Under the pieces are notes generated by a model. It had not been told where the DNA came from and searched no databases. It worked only from the letters and a program-made list of their open reading frames with translations. The translations under genes and the position numbers were made by a program. 64,000 bases of DNA. Source: Halocafeteria seosinensis. Lineage: Eukaryota > Sar > Bigyra > Bicosoecida. Below are positions 8,239-60,327 of this stretch, in pieces; position 1 is the stretch's first letter; each line of letters opens with the position of its first letter. The stretch is from NCBI GenBank assembly GCA_001687465.1, contig LVLI01000263.1, forward strand, positions 102,477 to 166,476, given 5' to 3'.

Positions 8239-10518
8239 ATGGTCGTCTCTGTGGACAGATTCCTCGCCTTTTCCGACGCATACTTTGCCATCATCGGTAA
8301 GCAGCTTGCGTTTTCATTGGTGCAGAACCTGTGTGCTTCTCGTAGAGAGAGAGAGAGAGAGGTCAGAGTCCCAACGTTGTGTGAATTTCACAAGCGTGGT
8401 TGATTACTTACAGCTACTCTCATGGCGAACCATCTCGTGCAACTCGATGAAAAGACAGTGGACAAAATCAGATCCTCGGGGACCAGCTTTACTTTAGGAG
8501 ACGCAATTGAAAACAATTTGGCTGGTGTCGGTATATTCTTTGTCACATTTTTGCTGATCGCCAAAGTCTTTGATGAGCACGCCACAGAGATGACAAACAT
8601 CCCACGAATTCGTCCTGCGACAGTGACGGCACATATTATTGGCTTTTATCCTAGCGTTGGATTTCTGCCTGCGACAACGGCGTTCATATCTCTCTACTTT
8701 AGGGACAGCATTTACTCTTCAGTTCTGTTCTTTGTGAACCTGTTGGTGCTGGATATGGCTCGCGCATGGGTGCACCAGTCTCTAGTGAATCACAGCGACT
8801 GTGGAATCTTGGTACTATCAAAAGGAAAGATGGTTGTGGGACACCCTTCGTTGAAAGATTTCTTTGACGTAGGAAGTATACCGTTGCTAGGCTCCGTAGC
8901 GTCCAAGTACATCTGGCTTACTACTGCTGTTGAAGCAACATCCCTGACTATTTGCATCGTGCTTGCAGTGCTTACAGGGGTGAAGCAACCCGGACAGTAC
9001 TGGACAATACCGATTTATATTGTCTTGATACTCTTCGATGGTAATATTGCCGACTATCTCTGTTATCGCTGGATTCCACAGATAAACCAAGCGGCGAATC
9101 TGTTGTCCACTGGAATTGTACCAGCGCTCAACACAGAGGATGATAACAGGAATCGAATATCAGAAGCAGACATTGAAGATTATGAAAACTATTCGGATAA
9201 CTTGCAATATACTCGTCAAGACGCTATCCCAGGTGAATATTACGTACAGTCGGCTGTAAGTACTTCGTTCGTCCGTGTCCCATGGCAGAATAACGAGGAA
9301 GCCTTGTTTCGTTAGCTGCAGGCAAGCAGTTTTGGTACGTCGCACTCACTAACCTTATTCAGCTTGTAGTCTTCACCGGAAAACACGCTATATTCAGGCC
9401 TTGATCGGCTGGTAGCGTTTGCGGACGGTGTGTTCGGTGTGGTAGCAACACTGTAAGTGCACTTGAGTATATGATAGAGAGTTGTCACTTTACTTAAACT
9501 GTCGCTTGGTCGTCACAGCATCATCCTCCAGATTAAACCTGAAACTGGAGCTCACGGGCAACCTGTTGAGTCGTTCAATACGTATTTACACCGACACTTT
9601 CGGGAGCTTATTAGTGCATTTGCCGTTCTCATGCTGGCAGCGTCTTTGTGGAATATGCATGCTACCCTTGTTCGAACAATGAGAATGTAAGTGTATTCCA
9701 GCTGGTTGTACTGGATCTCTCTCTGTCTCTCTCTCTCTTTCTCTGCATTACTTGTCGTCGAAACTCAGGTCGAATGATAACGTTGCTCGCCCATGCTACC
9801 GAGTGAATATGTACGTGCTATGGTTTCCTCCTGTCGGCAACGTGGGTCGAAGAATTCTTCATACATCGTTTATTGAAACAGGCTTATCCTGTCTGTGAGT
9901 GGGATTCTTCCTTTCTCGTTCTCTCTAGTGATCGATTTTCCTAGCGACTATCTTTCTGCGTAAGTCACTCCCGTTCTCCTCTGGCAGAGTTTACTACACT
10001 AACCCAGTCGGTCATTCAGGTTGATTATTGGTATAGTTCTGCTTGTAGTCTCCCTAGGCTTTCTAATGTTCTTGATCCACGTGACGTACAAGTTCCGGAA
10101 GCACCAAATGAAGTCAAATGCTGTTGAAGCGGAGTTGTTGGACAAACCCCTCCGACAGTCAGCTTCGGAGAATGAACAACAGGAACGGGAAGCTATCTGC
10201 TTTAAGCGCCGAAGCAATCAAGTGAAAATAAAGCTATCGTTATTGATCCTCGGAGCCATTATCCTCATATGTTTAGGCTTAGCGGGTGGTGAGGGAGATG
10301 GGAAAATCCACGAGTGGGTGACTACGAGTGTCCTCATCATCTTGGTACTAGGACTGGCTACAGAGCTACGTAAGTTGCTTATTGACAATCATAGCTTATC
10401 CCATTTACTCTGAGATGCCCTGGAACTTGCAGTTGCCGAGAGCATCCTACAATGCTCTAGAAAGGTATTTGGGGAAGAAGATGAAGATATTGATCTCTCT
10501 TTGACTGGACGTACGTGA
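8239..10518 (+). CDS. TMEM175/DUF1211-like potassium channel, intron-rich copy
   Basis: Endolysosomal-type K+ channel family (two repeats of about six helices). Eight exons fit: 8239-8296, 8414-9255, 9370-9452, 9519-9686, 9769-9810, 9882-9959, 10020-10369 and 10433-10518, giving about 568 residues. Each repeat opens with the family's pore-helix signature: DRFLAFSDAYFAIIATLM at the N-terminus and DRLVAFADGVFGVVATL at the start of repeat two, the latter followed by LQIKP. Multiple hydrophobic helices follow in each half. Exon joins were checked against the paralogue downstream; for example VNM-LILSVSGILPF aligns with VNGVVFSWVGLIPF there. Intron 1 holds an (AG)n tract and the intron after exon 4 a CT-rich tract. 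The last exon and stop are less certain, because a GTGAGT donor overlaps the stop. Confidence 0.85.
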
Positions 10519-11337: not shown

Positions 11338-13026
11338 ATGACGGTCTCTGTGGAGCGATTTCTGGCATTCACCGATGCCTACTTGGCCATTATCGGTACG
11401 CATTTAGTACACTCTGTCAAATGTTTGGTTATCCTTATCATGTGAGTGATGCATGCAACAACTGCAGCTACGTTGATGGTTACGGCCTTGGTCCACCTGA
11501 AAGACAAGTCTATAGAGACAATACAAAACGCTGAGAATGTGGAGCATAAACTGAGGGAGGAGCTGTCACACAGATACCTGGGAGTGGTGGTCTATTTCAT
11601 CACGTTCCATGTCATTGCGCGGCACTTTCTCATGCACGCAAAGGCGATGACGAGTATCCCCCGAGTCAAATTGGGTACCATCGCAGCGCATATTTTCGGA
11701 TACTTCCCGGCAATTGCGTTTCTCCCTTCAACAACATCATTTTTGGCTACTTACTTTGACAGAAATGCTTACATCGGATTTGCCTTTTTTGGGAATTTGA
11801 TTCTACTCTCTGTGGCCTCGGGAATTGTTGATTACACCCTCATTAAAGATAGTGACTGCCGACTACTTGTTTTCTCGAGGAGCATCATGCATGTTGGACA
11901 TCCGGATGTCCTGGAGAAGGTAGATCAAAAAGGATATGCAATGAGATATTCTACTTCTGTATGGTATACTGTATACAGGATATGTGGAGACACAATTTCA
12001 CTTTCCATTTCGATGGCTATTACAGTAGCCGTGGGGGTCGGCAGCTCACCGGGAGAGTGGTATTTGTATCCTATTTATGCTGTCTTGGCGCTGCTCCACA
12101 AATTTGTAGATCGTGTGGTCATCTCCAAATGCTTTCCACCTATAGCGCAAGTAGGAGCGACTGTACAGAGTCGTTCGCTACTAGGCGAGGCTCAAAGGGA
12201 ACGGACTAGGAAACACAAGGCTTCGCTCTTCGACAAGTCTCGTCTGGAGGCATTCGCTGATGGTGTGTTTGGTATAGTGTCTACACTCATTGTATTGGAA
12301 ATAAAACCCAATAGTGTCAGTGGTGAAGATTCGGAAGCACTAGGAGCATACCTCCACGAACATCGCGGAGAAATCATTTCGGCAGTTGTTGCACTGCTGC
12401 TGACGGCCTCGTTGTGGAATATTCACGCGACAATGGTGTCCCTCTTGGAGAAGAGTGGGGATGACGTTACTCATTGGACGTTTCGTGTTAACGGTGTCGT
12501 TTTTTCTTGGGTTGGTCTTATCCCGTTTTCTATATCGCTTGTGACAGACTTCCCCAAACTGGCGTTACCTCCGCTAATTCTGGGGATAGTGTTCCTGTTC
12601 ATTACTATGGCGTTCACTGTTTTCCTGATCCTGGTTACGCGAAAATTTACGAAGAGCAAGCAAGCCGAAAGAGACAGCCTCGTCAATAACGTAGATAGCT
12701 CAAGTGCACACCACGATGACGATACAAGTGATCCTGATGTACTGCACTTCAGAAACATCGCAAATCAGGCCAAAGTAAAATTGGTGCTCTTCGGTCTGGA
12801 AGCATTTGCGCTAATTACATTAGGACTAGTGCGTCTGCACAATGGACCAGCGCATCATGACTTCGTCATTACGTCCATAATGTTGGGTCTATTATTTTGC
12901 CTCAGTCTGGAAATGTTCTTGGAGACGAGGCCGTACTTTAAGGAGTACGTAGACGACGATCTAGATCATCTCCGCGGTTCACAAGCGGAACAAGAGTTAA
13001 AAGAATATGGATCATTTGACTCGTAG
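11338..13026 (+). CDS. TMEM175/DUF1211-like potassium channel, intron-poor copy
   Basis: Tandem paralogue of the upstream channel, about 538 residues. Two exons: 11338-11395 and 11468-13026. The first exon (MTVSVERFLAF) and the phase-1 intron inside ATC-G match the first copy exactly, but all later introns are absent. Repeat one carries ERFLAFTDAYLAIIATLM, so the usual FSD is FTD here. Repeat two carries AFADGVFGIVSTLIVLEIKP. Both halves have the expected hydrophobic helices (for example GEIISAVVALLLTASLWNIH). An acidic tail (YVDDDLDHL) follows. Residues such as WNIHATMV are shared with the sister gene, supporting local duplication. Confidence 0.88.
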
Positions 13027-22470: not shown

Positions 22471-23093
22471 AACGGTGTTAGGCGGTTCCACAATTCAGAG
22501 CCTCTCGCTGTCTCCGCATGAGGCAGACTGAGGTCTGCCAGATGAGGTTGAGCGGACAGTCTCAATCGTAGCACTAAAGTTGTGTAGTACGATTTCTGTA
22601 TTCAATATACAGTGGTATCCACTCCTGTTCTTGAACAGTTTCTACCGGTTTTAATTCCGTGCAGGGTGCGTATCTTTCCGCGTCCGCATGGACGGCTACA
22701 GGCTTCCACGCACACTGCTATCACAGTCTGTTGAACGACCTAAGGGGTACATCGATGACCTTTAATGATACAGATATACTATTTCCCCGTCGGCCTCTTC
22801 GCAAGTTCTGCGATATGCGAAGCGGACGCACGCGGTCACCAGGAGCTGTGTGTTCCCCGCCATTCTTCGCTAGCTCCGGCATTGCGCAAACAGGGCAGTC
22901 ACTTCCGTACAAGTAGGTTTCCTACTCCACGCCTATTGTTACCGTGTAATCTGGATTGATATGTGTTCCAAGTTCTTCAGTTGCTAATTCTGGTCCCCAG
23001 ACACGATCTGAAGAAGAATAATATGCGAAGGCTGGTTCTGTTCTTCGGCGTAAGTCGGCATGTAGCTGGTGCAAGCGAGTGCGGTGGTGAGAA
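22471..23093. other. Intergenic region, no supported gene
   Basis: About 0.6 kb. Contains a plus-strand open frame of about 85 codons (22659-22916) without motifs and minus-strand shadows of the next gene. Nothing functional recognised. Confidence 0.5.
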
Positions 23094-26000
23094 ATGAAGG
23101 GTGCTATGCGAACGGAGAGGCACAAGAAAGGAGTGAACAGTCGTCCCACTGTAAGCAGCAGGAGTCTATGGCACTGTTCATTCATTGTTGCGCTGATTTT
23201 CAACGCTCTGGCGACCTCCGCCTGGGCAGCGACGGTGTCTAGACACCGGGTTGGACCGCAAGATGTCAACAGGCTGTTTGCGCAGCAATTTCGACGAGAT
23301 CCTTTCACCAATACAAACCGTGCACTATCTGAACTGAGCGTAGACAATTTTGATGAGCAAGTCGCGCAGATTCTGTTCCATGAGTTCAATGTGTCCTCCC
23401 CGCAACAGTTTCGCAACCTCCAACTCGACGGCCTCGTAGATGCTTGCGAATCGCTTAAAATTGCCCATACGTCATGGAACGATGTGCAGAGAAATGGTTG
23501 TTCGTTGACTCTGGCAAACTTAGACTATTGCAACGGAACCCTGGAAGGGGTAGTATGTGACAATTTAGATGTACCGTTCGTGGATGGTTCTGGTGGAGTT
23601 GAGAACTTCAGCGTGAGCGTTGTAGCCGAGCTCGACTTTAGCAACATTCACGTATACGGAAACCTCCCGCAAGAGTTGCATAAGCTGCCTTTTTTACAAA
23701 TCTTTGCTGTTTCTGGAAGCGTTCGGACGAAAATACCAACGAAGTTGCGAGGCCTAAAACTCATGTCGGTGTTCGAAATTAGATCGTCCGGTTACATGAC
23801 ACGGATGCTTGGTGTTGGTCAAGAGATTCACGTACTTTCATCTGAGATATTTTCCCATTGGCCCCTGCTACGATCTCTGTGCTTAGAAAATGTCGGTTTA
23901 ATCGGAGACTTATCTTTCGACCTCGCTGGCACACTAGAGTCCTTGCAGGTGCCGAATAACCACCTCCGACTCCCTCCATCAACAGGAGACAACACAACCA
24001 GAGAAGGACATGCGTTCTTTCCGAAACAAAACTTAAGAATAAAGAACCTTAAAGTTCTTGATGTGAGTTTCAATCCCTTGGGACTATACCTGCCCTTCCT
24101 GGAATCACAACTATTCACTGAAGAATCGAAGTTGAAACACCTCAATTTAGCCGGTACAGGATCTTATGGGCCCTTTTTTACCTCTCTTCCCCGATCTATC
24201 GAGACCCTAATTTTAGACAAAAACGGAGGGCAGATAACGGGTACACTAGCGCATCCGGGTCTCGCGATGGCGACGAACATGCAAACGTTTCGCTGCACCG
24301 AATGCAATCTAGGACTTGGTGGCCGGGAGAAATCGTCTCAGTCACTATTCGACATGTTTAATTCATCCATAGAGCATTGGCACCATTTGGAGTATTTCGT
24401 TCTATCCAACACTGCACCTACAGAAAGCACTCTGGGGACAACAGTCGAACCGAATGGCTGGACGCACACCGGAGACACAGAGAGGAACATCGATAGTGGT
24501 CCTCCACCGTCCATGGCCCCTTTCACCAAACTCAGGTATTTTAGATGTAATTCATGTGGTATACGAGAGAAGGTGGCTTCCTTTCCGCCTCCTGCTAGTT
24601 CTGAAGAGCCTGGGTATATCTCTGTACATTTCGGGAACGATTCATCGCACAACGGAGATGCCATCTTAAAGACGAAGTCATTTTTCTTTAGATACTCATT
24701 ACTTTGTACGCCGGAAATCACTTACCCTGGCATAGTAGTTGCTTCACTTAGCTCTCTTAATCGGGGACTCCCGAGTTGTAAATGTCCCCAGGGGTGGTTC
24801 GGCCAAGATGGCGCATGCATACCATGTCCTTCATCTGCGACGACACAAGGCGATGGAGCCACCAGTCTCCGACAGTGCCTGTGCGGCAAGGGGCAGCATG
24901 CTCGCCCCGTAAACGATTCCGTTGGTGCCACCGCTTTGCTGTCTGAAGAGGGCGGAACTTGGTTCTCTTGCGATGATTGTCCACAAGGAACATTCAAGTC
25001 TTCCCCAAAGCATGATGAATGCGCAGTATGTCCACCACATTCCACTTCCTCTCCCGGGGCCACCAGTCGGTTTCAGTGTCTTTGCGAACCAGGATATGTG
25101 GTATCGAGTTCTCCCCAGGATGAGTTGACATGTGTGCAATGTGGTGCAAACCACTTCAAAGCTTTGGAAGGATTCCAGCAAGGCTGTAGTGTTTGTCCTG
25201 TAGGCACCTTTTCTGGAAGGGCATCTGCTTCCTGTTCACCGTGTGCTACACAAGGTGTAAAGTGCCAGAATGGAACAGTGTCTCTGGTCCCCGGCTGGTG
25301 GCAGCGTCCCATTGAGAACAAGGGTTCAGCAAACAGAGAACTCGGTATTGACCCTTCAAGACCTTTTCACCGGTGTCCCAATCCTTTTGCTTGCCGTGTC
25401 GGTGACGGTCAACATAACTGTTCGAAGGGATACAGGGGAACGCTATGCGGAGAATGTAACAATCGCGCAGGTTATGTAAAAGTCACCCCATATAGATGTT
25501 GGTCCTGCTTCTCTGATTCTTGGAAAAACGGTATGCTCTTCATGGGCATACTTACCGTTGTAAGCGGGGCAGTATTCGGTTTGGTGTGGTGGCACGCTCA
25601 AGTAGGCCGTCACACGAGGTCTGTAATTGTAAGAATCTTCGCGCAGTACTTGCAACTTCTCGTAGTAGTGGTACCTCTCGCTACGAATGGAAGGGATAAT
25701 CTCGCTGCTTCGATCTTATCTATTGAACAGGATTTAGGGTATTTCTTCCTCAAATGCGCTATAACCCCATCGTTTGCCGTTGGAGAAGTACTGCGTTTGT
25801 CTGTCCCAATCTTTTGGATATTAGTATGCGCAGCTACTTGCTTGTGTGCGAAATGGCTACGTTGGACCGGCGATGCTCACTGGATATTCTTCCATTGCTT
25901 GGTCACGTTTTATTATCTTTACGTTTGGAGTATCGTCCGATGGTCTATCGTTGCTTTCCATTGTGAGGAATTTAATGGCCTGAATGTCATGCGTTCCCAT

Positions 26001-26894
26001 CCTGAAATATACTGTTCCTCAGGGGAGTATATTGGAGTTGTATCGATGTGGGGGTTCGCTCTTCTGATTTGCTTGGTTGCAGGACAGTTCTTCATTATGA
26101 GGCGGGTGTATCGGTGCTACATGAATGGTGTTGGAGTAAGTGACATCAGAAGTCTCGGCTTCGTGATCCGCGGTTTCATTCCCGTTTCGTCAAAAAATGC
26201 GTATGCGTATTCCGGGTTGACTGATGTAGACAGAGTATACTGGTGGTGGCCTGCTGTAATTGTTACGCGGTTTCTCCTTGTGATGATTCTGCGCGAATTC
26301 GTGACGGACGTACGGGAATGCAGCGTTGCAATATTGCTTTGCCTTCTTGGCTACCTTTCGCTGCAGATTCATTGCCGACCATACTTCGAACACATACATA
26401 ATGTCATCGAAAGTGGAAGTATCCTGGTGTTGCTCCTGATACCTGCGACCATTATCAGTTCTCCCCTTGACGCAAACCTCCAATCCATTCCCGACACTAA
26501 GCATGCCCTTGTATGGTCGATACAGGTCGCGTACAGCTTGCTTTGCTTGGCTGCTATGGTTTATGTGGGTTGGAGTAGACGCAGCAGTCTAAGTGGTACG
26601 AAGTTTTCTGCGAAAGGAGGCCAAGAACCTGTGGTTTCCGGTATATCTAGTCAGTCAACGAGCGCTGATACAGATGGTAACGAAGTCTTCATCCTGAAGA
26701 GTCCGGAGGAGGTCCGTAGCCAAGACGAGCTTTTGAGAATGGGTGTCGATTCCGCTACATCAGAAAGCGAGAACAACGACGACCACTGCTCCGAAACGAA
26801 GTCGTATGAGGCAGGGGTGCAAGTTGGTACGCGTTCCCAGTACCTGAAACGCAAGTTAAGCACAGTAGAAGAAAGTGATGAGGAGCCCACATAA
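23094..26894 (+). CDS. Large LRR / cysteine-rich / multi-spanning membrane protein
   Basis: Intronless, 1266 residues. A hydrophobic stretch near residues 28-46 (HCSFIVALIFNALATSAWAA) looks like a signal peptide. Residues about 180-360 contain irregular leucine-rich repeats (LRSLCLENVGLIGDLSFDL, LKVLDVSFNPLG, LKHLNLAGTGSYG). Residues about 560-790 are Cys-rich ephrin-receptor/GCC2-GCC3-like modules (CKCPQGWFGQDGACIPCP, CPQGTFKSSPKHDECAVCP) ending GYRGTLCGEC. From residue about 813 there are roughly seven to nine membrane segments, including FFHCLVTFYYLYVWSI and a region with CRPYFEHIHNVIESGS, reminiscent of TRP-like or receptor-like proteins of protists and fungi. The C-tail of about 90 residues is Ser/Glu-rich. 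It is likely a surface receptor or channel, but the ligand and exact family are unknown. The lack of introns contrasts with its neighbours. Confidence 0.85.
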   Translation: MKGAMRTERHKKGVNSRPTVSSRSLWHCSFIVALIFNALATSAWAATVSRHRVGPQDVNRLFAQQFRRDPFTNTNRALSELSVDNFDEQVAQILFHEFNVSSPQQFRNLQLDGLVDACESLKIAHTSWNDVQRNGCSLTLANLDYCNGTLEGVVCDNLDVPFVDGSGGVENFSVSVVAELDFSNIHVYGNLPQELHKLPFLQIFAVSGSVRTKIPTKLRGLKLMSVFEIRSSGYMTRMLGVGQEIHVLSSEIFSHWPLLRSLCLENVGLIGDLSFDLAGTLESLQVPNNHLRLPPSTGDNTTREGHAFFPKQNLRIKNLKVLDVSFNPLGLYLPFLESQLFTEESKLKHLNLAGTGSYGPFFTSLPRSIETLILDKNGGQITGTLAHPGLAMATNMQTFRCTECNLGLGGREKSSQSLFDMFNSSIEHWHHLEYFVLSNTAPTESTLGTTVEPNGWTHTGDTERNIDSGPPPSMAPFTKLRYFRCNSCGIREKVASFPPPASSEEPGYISVHFGNDSSHNGDAILKTKSFFFRYSLLCTPEITYPGIVVASLSSLNRGLPSCKCPQGWFGQDGACIPCPSSATTQGDGATSLRQCLCGKGQHARPVNDSVGATALLSEEGGTWFSCDDCPQGTFKSSPKHDECAVCPPHSTSSPGATSRFQCLCEPGYVVSSSPQDELTCVQCGANHFKALEGFQQGCSVCPVGTFSGRASASCSPCATQGVKCQNGTVSLVPGWWQRPIENKGSANRELGIDPSRPFHRCPNPFACRVGDGQHNCSKGYRGTLCGECNNRAGYVKVTPYRCWSCFSDSWKNGMLFMGILTVVSGAVFGLVWWHAQVGRHTRSVIVRIFAQYLQLLVVVVPLATNGRDNLAASILSIEQDLGYFFLKCAITPSFAVGEVLRLSVPIFWILVCAATCLCAKWLRWTGDAHWIFFHCLVTFYYLYVWSIVRWSIVAFHCEEFNGLNVMRSHPEIYCSSGEYIGVVSMWGFALLICLVAGQFFIMRRVYRCYMNGVGVSDIRSLGFVIRGFIPVSSKNAYAYSGLTDVDRVYWWWPAVIVTRFLLVMILREFVTDVRECSVAILLCLLGYLSLQIHCRPYFEHIHNVIESGSILVLLLIPATIISSPLDANLQSIPDTKHALVWSIQVAYSLLCLAAMVYVGWSRRSSLSGTKFSAKGGQEPVVSGISSQSTSADTDGNEVFILKSPEEVRSQDELLRMGVDSATSESENNDDHCSETKSYEAGVQVGTRSQYLKRKLSTVEESDEEPT

Positions 26895-31736: not shown

Positions 31737-32021
31737 TTTCGCATCCTATGCAGACTAAACGATCAATAATACTCTCTAGCTATGCACATCCCGAAATTCT
31801 TGCCAGCATTCCACGACTAATTCCCCGTAGTAAAGCTCAGCAGAATCGATCAGCGACGGCTACGTTTCCAAACTTCAACTTCAAGGACAGATGCATGAAC
31901 TTGTTGTATACACGTCGACACGAACCGACTTGTCGTGCTATCCCGGGCGGATACGTTTTTTTAATGCGCTAAAAGTGCTCACATCAACGACAAAAGAAAG
32001 TATAACATCCCTTCCCTCATA
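31737..32021. promoter_or_regulatory. Divergent promoter interval, FabI / TFIIS-F-box gene
   Basis: A 285-base spacer between two opposite start codons. It may also hide an upstream FabI exon carrying a targeting peptide, but no frame-compatible one was found. No motif is claimed. Confidence 0.35.
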
Positions 32022-33290
32022 ATGGAGTCCTCAAAGGACCAGCCGTGCTCCGAACATGTTTGTTCCTCATCGAGTACCGCCTCTAGCACTCAAGAGACCC
32101 ATCCGTCCCCCACGGCGCCCATAAAGGAGGACAAGAGATTGAGGGATCGATGTGTCAAACTTCTCGACAGCGCAGTCAAACGTGGAATGGCAAAGTTAAG
32201 CCCGGAGATTCAGCAACGGTGCTATGCGCAACCTCAACGAGAGACTTGTGTGAAGAATCTCGAGGAACAGGTGTTTTCATCTGCAGAATATGAAACGAAC
32301 ACGAGGTACCGAGAATCTATTCGCTCTTTAGTGTATAATTTAAGCGAAGGAGGCACTATTTTAGAAGCTGCCATGATGGGGTTCATCTCCTCGGACCTGC
32401 TGGCATGTGTCTCGGTTGGAGGAGAAATTGCCCAACTACTAAGTGAATTACAAGATGCTCGAGATGCGGCGTTTATTCCTGCGTACAACCAGAATTCGAC
32501 TTTTTTACAAAGGTTGCAACCGTGCTTTCCACTGATTTTTTCATTCTTGCACGCAAAAGAATTCGCCAAGTTACAGCTCGTGTGCCGCAGTTTCAAACGA
32601 GTTGCTGGGTCAAACCTCTTCTGGTACGCGTATTGTACAAGAGACTTCTCCAAAGAAAAGCCAGTCATTGGCGCAAGCAATAAAATGACAGAGATACAAA
32701 AGAAAAAATGGGGGAGATCATCTTTGTTGGTCGAGAATCCCTCTTGGGGAAGCTTCCCCTGTAGCGAAGCTACAATCTTGCAAACATTTCTCAATAATAG
32801 GTTGCTATTTACCCAGCAGACATTCCCAAAACAGAGGCGCAAAGTATCTCAAATTGCCGGAGATCGGGTCTCAAAGCACTACCGTCGCCACTCAAGACGA
32901 AGGAGGAAACGTCGTCGTTCCACTGCTGAAGCTGGCATCCATGCAGACACGGGTGATCACAACTACAATGATAATAGCAGTTCTAACACGCCAATTACTG
33001 GGAATGGTATGGAATTTACCTCAGCGCAACTTCCTGTAATGCGCGACGAGTTTGGAGAGCCGTGGAAAAATGTGTATTTACGTTTGTACATTAGAGCTTC
33101 TCGTCTTCTAGCAGCAACACGCAAGCCAAAAGTGTCTTGTGCTACATGCAAGTCTGACAGCGCAGAAATTAGGATTTATTCGCGGGCAATGACGTTCATC
33201 AAGTATGCCTACTGTTCTCTCTGCTACAACGTCCGTGTACTGGAATGCAGCCACGGTGACCTAGCCGATATTGTAGACGCTCTCTTTTAG
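32022..33290 (+). CDS. TFIIS central domain plus F-box protein
   Basis: Intronless, 422 residues. After a Ser/Thr-rich leader, residues about 38-150 match the TFIIS central (TFS2M) domain, the part that docks on RNA polymerase II: RLRDRCVKLLDSAV, NLEEQVFSS, YRESIRSLVYNLSEGG, MGFISSDLLACVS. Residues about 168-215 read as an F-box (CFPLIFSFLHAKEFAKLQLV, CRSFKRVAGSNLFWYAYC), which would bind SKP1. A basic patch follows (HSRRRRKRRRS). Residues about 382-412 have two CxxC pairs (CATCKSDS, YCSLCYN) spaced like a shortened TFIIS zinc ribbon, but the RSADE catalytic loop is absent. Inference: an SCF-type adaptor aimed at RNA polymerase II. The TFIIS-M and F-box calls are fairly strong, the ribbon weak. 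Confidence 0.78.
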   Translation: MESSKDQPCSEHVCSSSSTASSTQETHPSPTAPIKEDKRLRDRCVKLLDSAVKRGMAKLSPEIQQRCYAQPQRETCVKNLEEQVFSSAEYETNTRYRESIRSLVYNLSEGGTILEAAMMGFISSDLLACVSVGGEIAQLLSELQDARDAAFIPAYNQNSTFLQRLQPCFPLIFSFLHAKEFAKLQLVCRSFKRVAGSNLFWYAYCTRDFSKEKPVIGASNKMTEIQKKKWGRSSLLVENPSWGSFPCSEATILQTFLNNRLLFTQQTFPKQRRKVSQIAGDRVSKHYRRHSRRRRKRRRSTAEAGIHADTGDHNYNDNSSSNTPITGNGMEFTSAQLPVMRDEFGEPWKNVYLRLYIRASRLLAATRKPKVSCATCKSDSAEIRIYSRAMTFIKYAYCSLCYNVRVLECSHGDLADIVDALF

Positions 33291-42935: not shown

Positions 42936-43761
42936 ATGGCTTCATCATCATCAGGGACCTCTTCTGGTGCTACGAAAGGTGTGCATAATTTCAAGCGTAG
43001 AACCTTTGACACAAGCAAATACGAACAGATTGCCAAACAGGAAGAACTACAACCAAAAGGAGATGAGGAAGACGCTTTAAAACGTAAGGGAAACAGCGAT
43101 GGGGAAGTGGTTGAAGGACCTTCAGGTGTACGACGAGTTCCCGGATCCAAGCGAGCGTTCTTGCAAGAACGAAGCTGGGCTCCAGACCTATCAAAGAACT
43201 TAGGGAAAAGCAAGGTAGGTTTGCTTTTCGTACGTTGGTGCTCTGTTCATTAGTTGCAATTTGGTTCTTCATTTTCAACCACAGGTTATTTCTGACCCTG
43301 ACCAAACCCAAGCATTCCAAAGCAAGGTTACTGGCGCAGTATTGCGCGACTCGTTAGCATATCTGGACCATATCAACGGAAAAAGATGTATGTTTCGGAT
43401 GATGACACGTACAGGATCATATTCTCATTGCACCACGGCACACGCTTATGATGCAGATAACCGACAGTTAGGATACAGTATGCGGGTAGAGCGCAAGTCT
43501 GCGTCAGACGTGCGGCAAAAGCTTGCCGAACTAAAAGAAAATGACAAGAAACCGAAAAAGAGATCCGCGGAGGAAAAATTAAAAGAATTCGATGAGACTA
43601 TGGCTGAAAAGAGAAAGAAGAAGCGATCTAGTGATTCTGAAGGGAAAAATGACGAATCTACCATCGAAGGTAATGCAACTGGTGACGAAGCAGAGGGCTT
43701 GGACCCAGAAGTAGCAGCAGTAATGGGATTCAAGGGTTTTGGAGGAAGCAAGAAATCATAA
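42936..43761 (+). CDS. ZMAT2: U4/U6.U5 tri-snRNP protein SNU23/ZMAT2, zinc finger degenerate
   Basis: Spliceosomal tri-snRNP protein. Exons 42936-43214, 43285-43387 and 43457-43761, 228 residues. Family marks: FKRRTFDTSKYEQIAK, RAFLQERSW, LGKSKVI, DSLAYLDHINGKR, LGYSMRVERKSASDV and the C-terminal MGFKGFGGSKKS. The normal C2H2 finger reads YCNVC...LDHINGKKH; here the two Cys positions are Ser and Thr (FQSKVTGAVLRDS), the first His (LDHING) remains and the second is Tyr (GKRYNRQLG). So three of four zinc ligands are gone. The second intron is 69 bases and open in frame, but removing it restores the family spacing. Function in splicing is likely retained through flanking helices. Confidence 0.88.
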
Positions 43762-44615
43762 AAATGAACATGGAAACACCGAAAGCCAATTCTTTGGCCA
43801 TTCTGGTTTCCACCCCCAAGTTACGCCCCATGCGTCGGCCAGTGGAGCTCTTCCAATCTCAGGGCTACTGTAAGCCTACCCAACAGGTACGTACCGCCGT
43901 CGACAAACACGGTGGACATTGTCTCTGCTTCTCTCAGAATCTCAGTGACGGTCCTTCTGAAAGTCGCCTTCCTCGGCAGTTGTTGCACATCTAATGAAAT
44001 ATTGCATAGATAGTCTTCTACAGTGTAACCCAATGCTTAGCATCCACGTTAGAAACGGCCATCCTGTCGCCGTTGAAGTCCGGCCACACACAAGTTGTTT
44101 CTTTTTTCTTTTCTTTTTTTCTTTACTCATCTATAGTTACAACTCAACACCACAACTTGTAGATAAATAGCATAAAACTATGAGTAGAACAAATCATTGC
44201 TTGCTTCAAAATCTCCGACTCGAAAACGCCTTGATCTGGCTTTGTGGATCCCGGAGTTTCCAGCCCTTGAAGGTGGGCGTTGGTACCGCTTCACGACAGC
44301 GACTCCAGCGATGGTACGTAGGAAAACCGCCTTGTTCTGATGCATTGCTTGTAGTTAGAAGGTTTCTCCTTTGGGCAGGCACATAGTGTATTACTCCTTT
44401 ATCATGCGATACTGATTGATATTATATAGAGCAACGTGAACAGTGGCCGCGACAACGGTTACGTGTTCACAGAGTCCTAGTGAACAGCACTTTCTACGGG
44501 AAAGCTTCAATAATTTTTCCCCTTAAATATGTCAGTCTAGTCAAATCCAGAATTATGCACTTGGCAGACGAGACTGCAGGCTTTTGAATCCATTCCAAAA
44601 GCAAGCAAACAGAAA
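43762..44615. other. Intergenic region with possible small minus-strand gene
   Basis: About 0.85 kb between SNU23 and the 7TM-FIST gene. It holds a T-rich polypyrimidine run near 44098-44124 and the open stretch described separately at 43821-44034. Nothing else supported. Confidence 0.4.
43821..44034 (-). CDS. Possible small protein or last exon, unknown
   Basis: An open stretch of about 70 codons on the minus strand ends at TAA (43821-43823). Its residues look protein-like: VEDYLCNISLDVQQLP, RRTVTEILREAE, LLGRLTVALRLEELHWP. It has no ATG of its own; an AAG acceptor-like site precedes it. An upstream ATG in another frame (MAVSNVDAKHW, near 44062) could belong to the gene if an intron or sequence error intervenes. 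I recognise no family. Confidence 0.28.
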
Positions 44616-47600
44616 ATGACAGATATCGCAGCATTTCAAACGGACGCTTCCAACGCTGCGTCGATAGTGTCCTATGTGTTGCTGAGCATTGGTCTTATAG
44701 GGTCTATTGCTCTTCTCTATGTTAATGTCACGGGCAATCAAAGAACAGTGGACTTCATAATCGGAGCGCCAGTAAGTTGCAAGACACAGTAGGTTCATTT
44801 CCAATATTCTTTTACGGACGGCTCACTGCAGGCTCTTATAATTTCTACGTTCGGCTATTCCGCCTTAGTTACGAGCCATTTAAAAGGGTCACCTTGTTGG
44901 ATCAGTTTTGCAACAGTTATAGGAGCTTTCAGTATCACTTACGCGTTTCTCATTGCAAAGCGTAAGTACTATTCAAGAATTGCATGGCATTCGTGTGATC
45001 ATCCCATACTCCCACCACAGTATCCACATTGAGAGTTATATACTTGAACAAAACATTGAAGAAGTTTGCAACAACTCGATCACCCGTAGCTAAAAGAGTT
45101 TTGCTGTGGATGATTCCCGATATTCTCATCACAGCAGTATGGTTTGGGGTTGATTCGGACATCCGGGATACACTAAAAGTTTCCCAGTTCACAATAATTA
45201 ACGTGAGTCGCTGCCATGAATTTCTCAGTGTACGTTAAGGACAAACAGAGACCTGGTTGATAATGCTTCGCAGAACGTAGACGGAAAAGTTTTCGACAGT
45301 GAGTTTGAGAAGACGGTGAATTGTTCACTTCCAAGGAGCTTAAACTCTTTGTTTCCTTTGCTAATAATTGTGTATCGGATATTGCAACTGATTTGTATGT
45401 TCCGTCTGTACTGGAGTATGAGGTTGATCAAAGCACCAAAGGTGGTGCAATGCTTTCTTGGAGGCTTGTCTTCGTTCATTGCATTAACACTAATTATGTC
45501 TGGTCTTCCGACTCTCATATTCACTAGTAGCCTCACTTTGCGAATCGTTTCATGGGAAATCTCCTTGTTCTTCTCCTTACACTTTCTAATATGGGGAAAT
45601 TATGGACATCAGATGTTCAAGAAGATCGGTAAATATTTCGGGAGTGATAACGAGATGCTAAGTGACCTGGATACCGCGGTGGCAACGAGTACTAAATCGA
45701 ATGTATCAGATGCAGTTGGCGAATGTGTGGAACGTCTACACTCAAGGCTAGAAAATTGGCCTTCTTTCGTTGTTGCCTACTGTTCAGACAAGTATGGAGC
45801 TGACAACATTTCTGCGGCGCTCCGGGAACGGATGCCTGCGGTCCCGTTTGTAAGTACTTCAGGCGACTTCTGGAAGAATGACGAAAATTTACTCTGTATA
45901 GTGTATTTTCCAATTCGAAACTCAGATAGGGATGAACAGCATACTTGGAGTTTTCCAAAATACTTCCTTCGTTTCATCAACAAACGGATACTATCTTTCT
46001 CTATGGGGCGTGTATGATCCTGATGGCGTGTACAAAGTGGCGTCGCAACAAGTGCACAGTGGTCCGACTGACCCCTCAGACAATGGTGAGTCGAGTTTAG
46101 CGGTCAGCTGTCGCCATAGCTTTTGACCCATTTTCCCTGCAGATACTGCAATCGCAAAACACAATAATGTGGCTAATGGCTCAGCAATCGATGAAGTTGA
46201 TGAAGACGTACCCGACGAAGGAGGCCCGCCGACTGCTCAATCCTTGCCTACTTCCAAGACCAATGATCCATTTACGGTTGGCAACGGATCGAAGACAATA
46301 AAAGAAGCAGTCAGCGCAGGTTACAAAGAAACCTGTAGCTTTCGAAGCGAGCATAAAAAATCTGCGGAACGGGATGATCGGACGAGTGTAGCTAAACATA
46401 GGAACAGCAAACTAGATCCGGACTTCGTTATCTGCTTTTCTCAGGGACTCGAGGAGGAAGCCGTGGCTGAAGCATTGGACGAAACGTTGCCCGAATCCAC
46501 CTCCGTCACAGGAGGAAATATTACTTCTGGTTATATCACAGGGACATTTGGGATTTCTACTCAAGTTCAAGGAGTAGTTTTCAGCAGTGAATGTGCGAAT
46601 GCTGCGGAGCATACGATAGTACTCGCTTCCTGCTGGCCATCAGTGAAGACTAAGTGCGTCATTGCAAGTGGCTATATTCCCCTTCCTCAGAGTGCCGCTG
46701 TTCGAAGGGATGACGCGGAAATAGGTAGAGAAATTGAAAGACTAGATAGAATCGCTGCAGCAGCGAAGTTAGATAACTGGACTGGAAGGGATGTCTTTGA
46801 CGGCAAGCAAAGCACTCGGAGACTCTCATTGGTAAGTACCTGACTTCAACGAGTAGCACGTATTCTGTGGATTGATTTCTTCGATTTTTCATGTGAGCAG
46901 ACTCAGTCCAAGACCTTCCAAAAGGCAAATTATGCCTTAGCGCGCCTATTGGGCAACGACCTATACGGACAAACATGTTACCAGGGAATCGAAGTAAGCC
47001 GATACTGAACCATTTGTATGTAATGGCATTATTATTACGTCAGCACTTTATCCACAGTTGTTAAAATCGAATAGTGACGGTTCTGTAACCGTCGGGGCGA
47101 ACGTACAGAATGGAGAGAAACTCACCCTTATGTCGACAACCGTGTCCCAACAAATTAGCATTATAACAGCCTCGATGGAGAATCAGATCAAAGAGCTAGG
47201 CTCAGTTAATTGTCGAGGAGCATGTTTTTGCTATGCTCATTCATGCGTCAAGCTGCTTGGAGATGAAGTACAAACGTTCAGTCAGCGCTTGTCCGCCACG
47301 CTGAAGAGGGGCGCATTTACAGGTATGATAGGGGCATTACCGAAACAAGCAAGTTGCCTCGAAGCATTCAGCACCATAAATGTTTTTGCAGGAGCATGCT
47401 GCTCCGGCCAGTATTGCACGGACACCAATGGCAAGGTCCGGTTTTGGACGGGACAATGTAGTGCCGTTTTGTTCACAGATGAGCCTAAGTTTCCGCGGTA
47501 CACATTTCGCCGGGCTACCAGAAAGTCGACTTCTTCAGGGACTCGTTACTGTCCATGTTTGCAAAGTCGAAAATCAAGTAGCACCGGCAAAATATTGCCC

Positions 47601-47756
47601 ATGTCACGTACGAAGAGCACCACTTTCGAACCCTTGAGGCGTTCTGTTATCACTCATACTGGTGGTTCCAAGAAACCCAGTGTAACTTCAAATAGAAAAG
47701 TATATGGAGCGAAACCATTCTCCAGCACGATGGGTCACTTGTTCAGCAAGCATTGA
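44616..47756 (+). CDS. Seven-transmembrane (class C GPCR-like) protein with cytosolic FIST domain
   Basis: Eight exons (44616-44771, 44832-44961, 45021-45202, 45274-45849, 45926-46085, 46143-46831, 46901-46993, 47058-47756) give about 894 residues. Residues about 12-250 hold seven hydrophobic helices in class C-like order: CWISF in helix 3, a basic loop after it (STLRVIYLNK), and WFGVDSDIRD then VNCS in the second extracellular loop. The rest is cytosolic. Residues about 318-660 match a FIST N module: SFVVAYCSDKYG, ALRERMPAVPFIGMNS, then DFVICFSQGLEEEAVAEAL, LPESTSVTGGN and GVVFSSEC. Residues about 663-770 match FIST_C (DGSVTVGANVQNGEKL, FCYAHSCVKLLGDEVQTFSQ). The tail is Ser/Thr/Arg-rich (SRKSSS, RRSVITHT). 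FIST is a ligand-sensing domain of bacterial sensors and FBXO22-like proteins. The joint architecture is unfamiliar to me. Confidence 0.8.
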
Positions 47757-57472: not shown

Positions 57473-60327
57473 ATGGGGTGCTCCTCCTCGAAAACCGCGC
57501 CGGAAGATTCCAAACATACAGACGACCGCAATACGGACGAGCCCACAGTAAGAACTGATATAGTTACTAATTGGGGAAGTAGCGTGTAATCGTAATCATA
57601 TTCGACTTTCGCAGTCGCCCAGACATGTCAAGCACGTGGATGTGAACAAGGAAAAGATACATGAACCAAAGCCAAAGTCGGCTTCCAGTAACAGGAAAGC
57701 TGTAACGTAAGAACTGAAGTGTGTATATCTGAACTGTGCCATGAATTTCACCTGATGACATCCCTGTGGAAAACTTGTACAGCGCTGAATCATATGATAC
57801 GTTCGCACGGAAAGTTGGAGAGGAAGCGGAAGCGAGAACTAATGCTGATATTGAAGCCGCTCAGCATGCCCTTCATGCTCGCGAGGATACAATACCAGAA
57901 GACGGTGCAGCGGAGGAGCATAAAAAGGATGACGCACACATTGAAAACGAGGAAAACAAAGCTCCGCCAAAAGACGAACAGACGCTCGAGATACTCCATC
58001 ACGCCATCCGCAGCTGCTTCATTTTCAATGGTCTAACCAGAACCGAGGAGGATAGTATCGTTGCCGCCATGCATCCTCACAGGGTACCTGAGTCGGAAGT
58101 AGATACCAGTCTTTCCGACACATATTTCGTATGCACCGAAGGGCAACTCTTCGTGACATCTGGCTCAACGGAAGAGACGCTAAATCCTGGTGATTCGTTT
58201 GGAGAACTATCATTGCTCTACAAAACCACCGCTCAAGTCAAGATTGAGGCCAATACAGAAAGCATAGTATACTTTCTAGAGCGTGAGAGCTACAAGAAAG
58301 TTATTGTATCCGCATCTGCCAAATCAATCAAGGAGAACTATGCCTTCTTGAAGCGGTAAGTCCGTTCTGACCGTGGAGCCATGTCGCACGTTACAAGCGC
58401 TTTTGTATCTGTTTGCAGAGTGAATATGTTTAAAGATCTTCCGGACGAAAAGCTGTATCAGCTAGCAGAGGCTGTTGACCGGGAATCGTTTGAAACGGGA
58501 CAGAGTATTGTAGAACAGGGAGAAGAAGGGTCTATGTTCTATTTAATTGCAGGCCCTAAACGTACAGCTCAGGTAGGTGATGATGGATGTTATTCGGGCC
58601 CCCCTCTGTTAACATTGTTTAAGAATGTTGTTTTGTCCTTCAGGTTCAAGTACTCAAGACATACGACGACGGAACAACGATGGAAATTATGCGCCTAGGA
58701 GTGGGTTCGTATTTTGGAGAGCAGGCACTGCTGAACGATGCTCCGCGAGCGGCAACTGTGAAAACTGCGACGCCAGTCCAGTGTCTTCAGCTCGAGAGAT
58801 CAAAATTCAAAGACTTATTGGGTAAGTCATTTCCTGTCCCGCTTTTTGCATCTGTATTCACCTTTCGTATCAACTGGGTTCAGGTGACTTAGAAGAAAGC
58901 ATGCGAGAACAGCATTCGAAACGCGAAAAGCGAGAGATGAAGAGAATTCAGTCCAGTGGTTCAGGAATGTGGAAGTCTAGTACTCCTCGCGGTTCTCCAA
59001 GAGCCAAGAAGACGTTCAGCTCCGAGGAAATGAAGAAGACTCACAGCTCAGAATCAATGAAAAACAACACGCACTCAAAACTGGTTGATGGTGAAGCTTC
59101 AAGTGAGAATGCAGTGCGCCGCGCTGCGACTGTGCCGCAGCTTCGCACCGATATTTCTTTAGATCGGCTGCAACGCTTCAATGTCATCGGGGAAGGGGCT
59201 TTTGGGAACGTGCACTTGGTCAAGCATATAGACACGGGAGAAGTGTTCGCTGCTAAACAAATGCAAAAGGTTAAAGTTGTTGAAACCAAGCAGAAGAAAA
59301 ACGTGATTAACGAAAAGCGCATTATGGCGATGATAGATCATCCCTTCGTAAGTACATGTATTCTGGTGAGCTTCTGGGCACTCAGCCACATTTGCGGGGA
59401 AGTTCCTTTTCAGGTAATCCGCCTTCACCAAACTCTCAAAGACAAGAACAATTTATTTTTGATATTAGAGTATCTAGGAGCAGGAGATATGTTCAGCGTC
59501 ATTATGAATAATGGCGGTAGATTCAGCGAAAATGTTTCGCGTTTTTATGCAGCAATTGCCGTGACGGTTTTGGGCTACATACACCAGAAGAAAATTCTGT
59601 ATCGGTAAGTGGCACTTGGTCTGTTTCTTGACTCGTCTAAGAGAACACCACCTTCTTTCAAACCCAGTGACCTGAAACCAGAAAATATGGTATTTGACGC
59701 TGATGGTTATTACAAATTTGTGGATTTTGGCTTTGCCAAGATCGTCAATCATAAGACGTTCACGCTCTGTGGCACACCGGAATATTTAGCCCCTGAGCTT
59801 GTCCAAGGAAGGGGCCATCATAAGGGTGTAGACTATTGGGCCCTGGGTATTCTAATTTTTGAGATGCTAGCCGGCTATTCGCCGTTTGCGGACCACAAGA
59901 ACAATGACCAGCTTCAAATTTACAAGAACATATTGCGGGGCAAGTTGCGATTTCCTCGCTCAATAAAGAGTCGGGGCGCTCAGGACTTAATCGGTCGGTT
60001 GCTTAAGCCAAATCCTGCAGAAAGACTTGGATGCCTCAAAGGGGGAGCTGAGGACATCAAGGCTCATGAATGGTTTGAGAATTTAGAGTGGCAGAAGCTG
60101 TATAGGAAAGAATTGCCGGCGCCACTTCCAATAAAAGCTAAGCAGCCAAAGTTTGATCCGAAGAGAGCCGCAGCCCCAGGAGACTTTGGTAGAGCGAAGT
60201 CATACACGTGAGTGATACTCAACTCTATTAACCTTAACAAATACAATCCTACTTGGTGTGTATGCTATTTCGGTATAACTTTGAAACTTGCAGTGATGAT
60301 GGAAGCGGGTGGGATCAGGAGTTCTAG
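57473..60327 (+). CDS. PKG: cGMP-dependent protein kinase (AGC family)
   Basis: Cyclic-nucleotide-activated Ser/Thr kinase, 766 residues from nine exons (57473-57547 ... 59668-60207, 60294-60327). The N-terminus MGCSSSK is a textbook myristoylation plus palmitoylation signal, implying membrane anchoring. The first cyclic-nucleotide domain (IRSCFIFNGL, GDSFGELSLLYKTTAQVK) lacks the phosphate-binding Arg and part of the preceding loop, so it is probably inactive. The second (QGEEGSMFYLI, FGEQALLNDAPRAATVK) is intact. Kinase motifs: GEGAFGNV, FAAKQM, YRDLKPEN, DFGFAK, CGTPEYLAPE. A 34-base last exon restores the AGC tail end DDGSGWDQEF, replacing an apparent earlier stop. cGMP rather than cAMP is inferred from family layout. 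Confidence 0.95.

Follow-up and report, generated by a model that had tools for sequence, protein, structure and literature searches.

A predicted class C-like seven-helix receptor joined to a FIST domain in the bicosoecid Halocafeteria seosinensis

The 64,000-nucleotide stretch of DNA analysed here, hereafter the window, comes from Halocafeteria seosinensis (contig LVLI01000263.1, positions 102,477 to 166,476 of the forward strand), whose eukaryotic assembly comprises 30,592,128 bases in 605 contigs. Within it, a single gene on the + strand at window positions 44616-47756 is predicted to encode a protein of 871 residues, in which seven hydrophobic helices resembling those of class C G-protein-coupled receptors (GPCRs) are followed by a FIST domain. 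The gene model has nine exons and eight GT...AG introns of 57-76 bases. All nine exons are open and, in a weak test based on codon usage, the coding frame was ranked top in five of the nine (exons 1 and 5-8). An initial annotation of this DNA had proposed a fusion of this kind on the strength of short motifs, all of which (CSDKYG, MPAVPFIGMNS, VICFSQGLEEE, VTGGN, DGSVTVGANVQNGEKL and HSCVKLLGDEVQTFSQ) are present in one reading order at the locus, with MPAVPFIGMNS spanning a splice junction.

The junction between the two parts lies inside exon 4 (45274..45849, +; residues 157-348). This exon encodes outer loop 2 with D164 and C173, transmembrane helices (TM) 5-7, a linker of 26 residues and the opening 60 residues of FIST, and the stretch from TM5 through the linker into FIST is held in one uninterrupted frame without a stop or a change of frame. 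Because exon 4 alone runs from helix 5 into FIST, the fusion is independent of guessed splicing. To score the FIST portion we used a hidden Markov model (HMM) of bacterial FIST built from 102 frames (at least 118 loci were found by motif pattern in genome contigs, 104 of them with a motif frame of more than 300 residues). The part of exon 4 after TM7 reached 15.9 bits, compared with a best of 6.9 among the 5,630 reported of 10,000 shuffles. Pfam gave no FIST match for exon 4 alone, so the presence of FIST in this exon is based on the local HMM together with whole-protein matches that start there.

The same junction recurs in a second sequence. When 5.8 billion proteins were searched with exon 4 (123 candidates scored), a single relative was found, P0002 (E 1.1e-86), a protein of 205 residues from an ENA contig of 699 bases. 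Exon 4 and P0002 are identical at 136 of 192 positions, with 77/109 from loop 2 to TM7, 14/23 in the linker and 45/60 in FIST. The FIST tail of P0002 scored 13.0 bits with the bacterial FIST HMM, and the best of its own 10,000 shuffles, 5,752 of which were reported, scored 7.3. P0002 diverges from the spliced protein where the splice junctions are predicted, just before NVDG on one side and just after VPF on the other. The two letters that follow VPF are VS, as they would be in a read-through of the intron of the H. seosinensis gene; from these sequences we infer that the splice sites are common to the two genes. A search of the H. seosinensis genome with the whole protein (4 candidates scored) returned only the window locus, and no close paralogue was seen. 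Since this was the only locus found and the identity is 71%, P0002 most likely derives from another species.

We considered whether neighbouring 7TM and FIST genes had simply been merged in the gene model. Such an artefact would fit with the silence of Pfam on exon 4 and with the lack of a whole-length homologue, as searches of the 5.8 billion proteins with the whole protein and with FIST only (about 8,000 candidates scored each) found nothing. It is contradicted by the location of both parts in one exon with no stop or frame change between them, and by the repetition of the junction in P0002. We therefore rejected a two-gene artefact, which we judge to be very improbable; the proposal that 7TM and FIST form one gene is borne out by the single exon, and the same fusion, for the portion covered by exon 4, is found elsewhere in P0002.

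Other searches returned no further relatives. A scan of viral contigs with exon 4 gave none, and family searches of the H. seosinensis genome for FIST and 7tm_3 gave none either, which is weak as evidence of absence in so intron-rich a genome, given that the FIST search missed the window gene itself. A search of the same genome for light-harvesting proteins (PF00504) was likewise empty, with the same weakness, and hints at most that the organism is not a typical alga. AlphaFold2, supplied with an alignment of exon 4, P0002 and ten bacterial pieces, modelled exon 4 alone with three long helices, a mean predicted local distance difference test (pLDDT) of 75.9 and a predicted template-modelling score of 0.36. 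In the FIST piece the block pLDDT is 91-97, and two helices but no strands are assigned. The overall confidence of the model is low and, being of a fragment, it is uninformative about the whole fold.

The seven-helix part begins with exon 1 (44616..44771, +; residues 1-52), to which the gene model and hydropathy assign the start codon, an outer N-terminus of about 15 residues, TM1 and the start of TM2. Exon 2 (44832..44961, +; residues 53-95 and part of 96) supplies most of TM2, C74 before TM3, TM3 itself and K95, and exon 3 (45021..45202, +; up to residue 156) supplies the basic inner loop 2, TM4 with W136 and the start of outer loop 2. Hydropathy gives seven peaks, at residues 16-34, 47-65, 76-94, 122-140, 181-199, 213-231 and 244-262. 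The ratio of K+R to D+E is 8/0 in the putative inner loop 2, 4/0 in inner loop 3 and 5/6 in outer loop 2. The hydropathy and the basic inner loops fit a predicted topology with the N-terminus outside and the C-terminus inside.

The likeness to class C receptors was assessed with an HMM built from GABBR1, GABBR2, mGlu4 and CaSR, against which the seven-helix part scored 15.9 bits. Shuffles that kept the hydropathy did not reach this value in either of two sets, 0/500 (492 reported, best 14.8) and 0/10,000 (9,853 reported, best 12.9), and five other frames of the window gave -0.1, -1.9, -1.8, no reported score and -2.7 bits. Seven of the 18 columns that are invariant in the four references are kept (G26, C74, K95, W136, D164, C173 and L193). 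These include the landmarks that one would look for in such a receptor: there are seven helices, and C74 (TM3), C173 (loop 2), K95 (TM3) and W136 (TM4) align with the references. In class C receptors these two cysteines are paired with each other.

Several results weigh against full membership of class C. The other 11 of the 18 invariant columns are not kept; one of the 500 shuffles came near the real score, at 14.8 vs 15.9 bits; Pfam 7tm_3 gave no match even at E 10, with the caveat that most weak matches are lost to the HMMER filters; and hhalign against the four-sequence class C profile was weak (probability 19.9%, E 0.0011). Searching the PDB with the 7TM part by phmmer yielded one chance match only (E 0.73). 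Identity to GABBR1, GABBR2, mGlu4 and CaSR is only 17, 18, 17 and 14%, so that no branch of class C is favoured. The class C-like assignment made in the initial annotation thus finds support only in the local profile and some conserved landmarks, and the evidence supports describing the seven-helix part as class C-like rather than as a proven member.

No Venus-flytrap domain was matched by Pfam in the gene model, nor does the DNA just upstream seem to offer one. The stop-to-stop frame of exon 1 is closed upstream of the start, opening at 44541, and a 180-residue frame on the + strand, which has no Pfam match, stops at 43761, some 850 bases short of the gene. These limits would leave no room for a flytrap domain between them, and a far upstream exon is conceivable. 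Some class C members, such as GPR156, have no flytrap domain.

A significant FIST match had been set beforehand as a test of the proposed fusion, and it was obtained: Pfam FIST (PF08495) matched residues 321-590 of the whole protein at 35.2 bits, above the family cut-off of 23.2 (E 1.5e-8). Pfam FIST_C (PF10442) matched residues 658-758 at 24.2 bits (E 3.9e-5), a significant score that is nevertheless below the cut-off of 28.5. When the 7TM part, an insert described below and the tail were cut away, FIST rose to 39.6 bits and FIST_C to 26.5, still short of its cut-off. The bacterial FIST HMM recognized three collinear stretches, at residues 289-356 (17.6 bits), 479-542 (3.7 bits) and 668-715 (5.6 bits), for a total of 30.7 bits, the first of them being the best kept. 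As this match sets in at residue 289, FIST begins near there and not at residue 318, where it had earlier been placed. Pfam found no catalytic or other domain beyond FIST and FIST_C in the protein, and no F-box; phmmer of the FIST part against the PDB gave no match.

Downstream of exon 4, exon 5 (45926..46085, +) contributes FIST N with the MNS motif region and, according to the gene model and Pfam, the beginning of a polar insert, about 95 residues long (roughly 396-490), that breaks up FIST N. Exon 6 (46143..46831, +) contains the bulk of this insert, followed by the FIST segment with the GLEEE and TGGN motifs, and on its own scored 22.1 bits with Pfam FIST, against the cut-off of 23.2. Exon 7 (46901..46993, +) connects FIST N to FIST_C in the gene model. 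Most of FIST_C is encoded by exon 8 (47058..47322, +), as judged from the gene model, Pfam and the bacterial FIST HMM, and exon 9 (47392..47756, +) holds the end of FIST_C (GACCSGQY), a basic tail rich in Ser and Thr, and the stop codon. Five [RK][RK]x[ST] sites occur in the protein as a simple count, four of them in the tail.

Exons 8 and 9 are separated by a GT...AG intron of 69 bases (47323..47391, +) that is in frame and was read as coding in the earlier model of eight exons and 894 residues. The distance from the place of the FIST_C motif C-x-x-R to that of G-E or G-Q is 35 residues if 47323-47391 is spliced and 58 if it is retained. Among the 96 bacterial FIST frames that have a C-x-x-R ahead of the motif, 92 show a spacing of 32-38, and FBXO22 has one of 36. 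Splicing is favoured because a spacing of 35 fits both bacterial FIST and FBXO22 and 58 does not. Pfam FIST_C scored 24.2 bits on the full-length protein without the intron and 22.2 on an excerpt covering exons 7-9 in which the intron was retained, queries that differ in length, and the bacterial FIST HMM does not separate the two models, giving 30.7 bits for each. On the motif spacing, the sequence probably has a ninth exon, and a product of 871 rather than 894 residues.

The residues that mark FIST_C are poorly kept. The expected signature is C-x-x-R followed by G-E; here the R is absent in both alignments of the C-x-x-R place, and the E is replaced by Q757. The cysteine is either lost, with A722 of A722-H-S-C725 at its place when the usual spacing of 35 is applied, or shifted by three places to C725 in a MAFFT alignment, with a spacing of 32. 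The E of the G-E in FIST N is not kept either. Human FBXO22, by comparison, has all three: C326, an R at the third position after it, and E362. The initial annotation had spoken of a complete FIST sensory domain that would sense inside the cell or else serve as the output. A complete, ligand-sensing FIST is not supported as stated, given the sub-threshold FIST_C match and the altered signature; that FIST senses at all is a guess, and a docking or regulatory role is no less likely.

One could go further and regard FIST as a degenerate passenger, the protein being an ordinary class C-like GPCR whose tail provides bulk or trafficking signals only. The low FIST scores, the large polar insert and the altered signature residues would be expected in that case, but the start of FIST is about as conserved in P0002 as the TM part, which speaks against free drift, and we think it quite unlikely that FIST is an idle appendage.

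The best-characterized FIST proteins suggest what else the domain might do. Bacterial NosP FIST is described as a heme-based nitric oxide (NO) sensor that binds heme and controls a histidine kinase (PMC12570481, in part). The H. seosinensis protein resembles NosP and other bacterial FIST proteins in its three collinear FIST stretches, and differs from them in its fusion to a membrane receptor, in having lost the FIST_C arginine and glutamate, and in its polar insert. NosP was the only NCBIfam match of the FIST piece (residues 6-51, 16.9 bits, E 0.0027), and we rejected membership in that family, since the cut-off is 450 bits; the match covers the first repeat only. In human FBXO22, FIST has no obvious ligand-binding pocket and binds BACH1 through an edge hairpin (PMC11185555, in part), and C326, which adjoins E362, reacts with aldehyde compounds (PMC13316043, in part). 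FBXO22 is likewise a eukaryotic FIST protein and its human form passes the Pfam FIST_C cut-off, with FIST itself at 23.0 vs 23.2. Unlike FBXO22, the protein described here has no F-box, does not retain R or E in FIST_C, and has no pairwise similarity to it; orthology was rejected on a phmmer score of -1.5 bits and the missing F-box.

The NosP precedent raises the possibility of a two-input receptor, in which the 7TM part would sense the outside and FIST would sense a small molecule or gas inside the cell (an amino acid, or heme/NO), with both converging on one output. The description of NosP as an NO sensor, the NosP match, however far below its cut-off, and the identity at 19 of the 43 columns whose conservation across the bacterial FIST set is 70% or more (MAFFT alignment) all lean this way. 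The loss of the FIST_C R and E and of the FIST N glutamate, and the restriction of the NosP match to the first repeat, lean the other way, and we hold this reading to be possible but doubtful. In one form of it, which we put forward only tentatively, a FIST of prokaryotic type, recruited independently of FBXO22, would read an internal molecule or gas, and this inner state would gate the G-protein signal of a flytrap-less receptor.

Alternatively, FIST might itself be the output, with no G protein involved: activation would release or recruit a FIST partner, for example the ubiquitin machinery as in FBXO22, which employs FIST for substrate recruitment (PMC11185555, in part). The protein has no F-box by Pfam, its similarity to FBXO22 is too low for phmmer to measure, and genes for G-protein signalling exist in the genome: one encodes G-alpha (E 9.0e-75), and RGS matched nine times, at about eight places. 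A direct output of this kind is accordingly unlikely in our estimation, and the presence of G-alpha and RGS genes in the same genome makes coupling to a G protein possible.

Three of the RGS-matching genes have features of their own. Two of them (L139 and L140, contig C357) lie about 4 kb apart, and each has further on the motif NCRFLQGPETD, which we take to be LOV-like; in L140, Pfam scored RGS at 38.2 bits and PAS_9 at 59.9 bits. By these features, both are likely to be light-sensing G-protein regulators. The third, L137 (contig C60), has its RGS match in an open frame of 1506 residues, at a locus where a long frame carries inositol-polyphosphate-phosphatase-like motifs, and is perhaps an RGS-phosphatase fusion.

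Receptors joined to signalling domains are known from oomycetes and other protists as GPCR-bigrams, whose partners are PIPK, TKL, INPP, AC, PDE and AP (PMC6033456 and PMC5784254, each in part). The present protein shares with them the union of a seven-helix receptor and an accessory signalling domain in one chain, and departs from those listed in that its partner is FIST, which is not a catalytic domain. It also resembles, by description and not by sequence, the plant 7TM-RGS proteins, in which a 7TM part is joined to a non-catalytic cytosolic regulator, RGS there and FIST here (PMC6033456, in part). From class C GPCRs such as GABA-B, mGlu and CaSR, with which it shares the TM3 and loop-2 cysteines, the lysine in TM3, the tryptophan in TM4 and a local profile match, it is set apart by the lack of a Pfam 7tm_3 match or a detected flytrap domain, and by the C-terminal FIST. 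The main text of PMC5784254 contains no mention of FIST, which is also not named in the first part of PMC6033456 and is absent from the main text of a survey of choanoflagellate GPCRs (PMC12716839). The claim that no receptor of this layout had been described agrees with our full-text literature searches, which found none uniting 7TM/GPCR with FIST, most subscription journals lying outside their coverage. As for a GPCR-PIPK in H. seosinensis, no clear 7TM precedes the kinase at three PIP5K genes (four loci, L141-L144), within the short flanks covered. We conclude that the protein is a variant of the GPCR-bigram layout with a non-catalytic FIST partner.

How such a protein might work can be sketched as follows. 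A flytrap-less, class C-like bundle with its N-terminus outside would pass at its cytosolic end through the 26-residue linker into FIST and then into the basic Ser/Thr-rich tail. A signal felt by the seven-helix part, within the membrane bundle if there is no large outer domain, would alter the bundle, and the FIST held at the membrane would recruit a partner protein to the receptor or hold back the coupling of the receptor to a G protein. FIST would thereby act through partner proteins, by analogy with the FIST of FBXO22 and bacterial NosP, phosphorylation of the tail may tune its action, and the receptor as a whole would work as a GPCR-bigram with a non-catalytic partner domain. For this single-chain receptor we regard a docking or regulatory role of FIST as more likely than internal ligand sensing because some of the FIST signature residues are lost; judged from sequence, we would give the docking or regulatory role about an even chance of being right.

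Certain points tell against the preferred picture. The support from a second sequence covers exon 4 only, P0002 being known as a protein sequence. The comparison of FIST residues depends on an alignment of very distant sequences, in which the FIST_C cysteine column (C725) is itself among the 19 identical columns. The G-E motif is invariant in the bacterial set by construction, as the set was picked through that motif; FBXO22 was not so chosen. With so distant an alignment and these columns identical, FIST may have a working pocket.

The rest of the window contains several other genes. The PKG gene noted in the initial annotation as lying 10 kb away, at 57745-60211 (+), has a cyclic-nucleotide-binding domain followed by pieces of a protein kinase domain and is probably PKG/PKA-like; the domains are real, but other genes lie between, and nearness is no evidence of a link. 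A frame of 1267 residues at 23091-26891 (+) has an Ephrin_rec_like domain and then about nine hydrophobic stretches, and scored -1.3 bits with the class C HMM. At 31965-33287 (+), a TFIIS central domain and an F-box-like domain share one frame. Two nearby membrane-protein frames with somewhat similar beginnings lie at 8404-9312 and 11446-13023 (+), the latter with a TMEM175 potassium-channel domain and the former without a Pfam match.

The fusion extends the short list of domains that eukaryotes have joined to seven-helix receptors by a non-catalytic one, FIST, whose known occurrences are chiefly in bacterial sensors and FBXO22. If FIST gates the receptor, the protein would be a direct test case of an inner domain controlling a flytrap-less class C-like bundle, and the possible roles of eukaryotic FIST may extend beyond the recruitment of substrates for ubiquitination.

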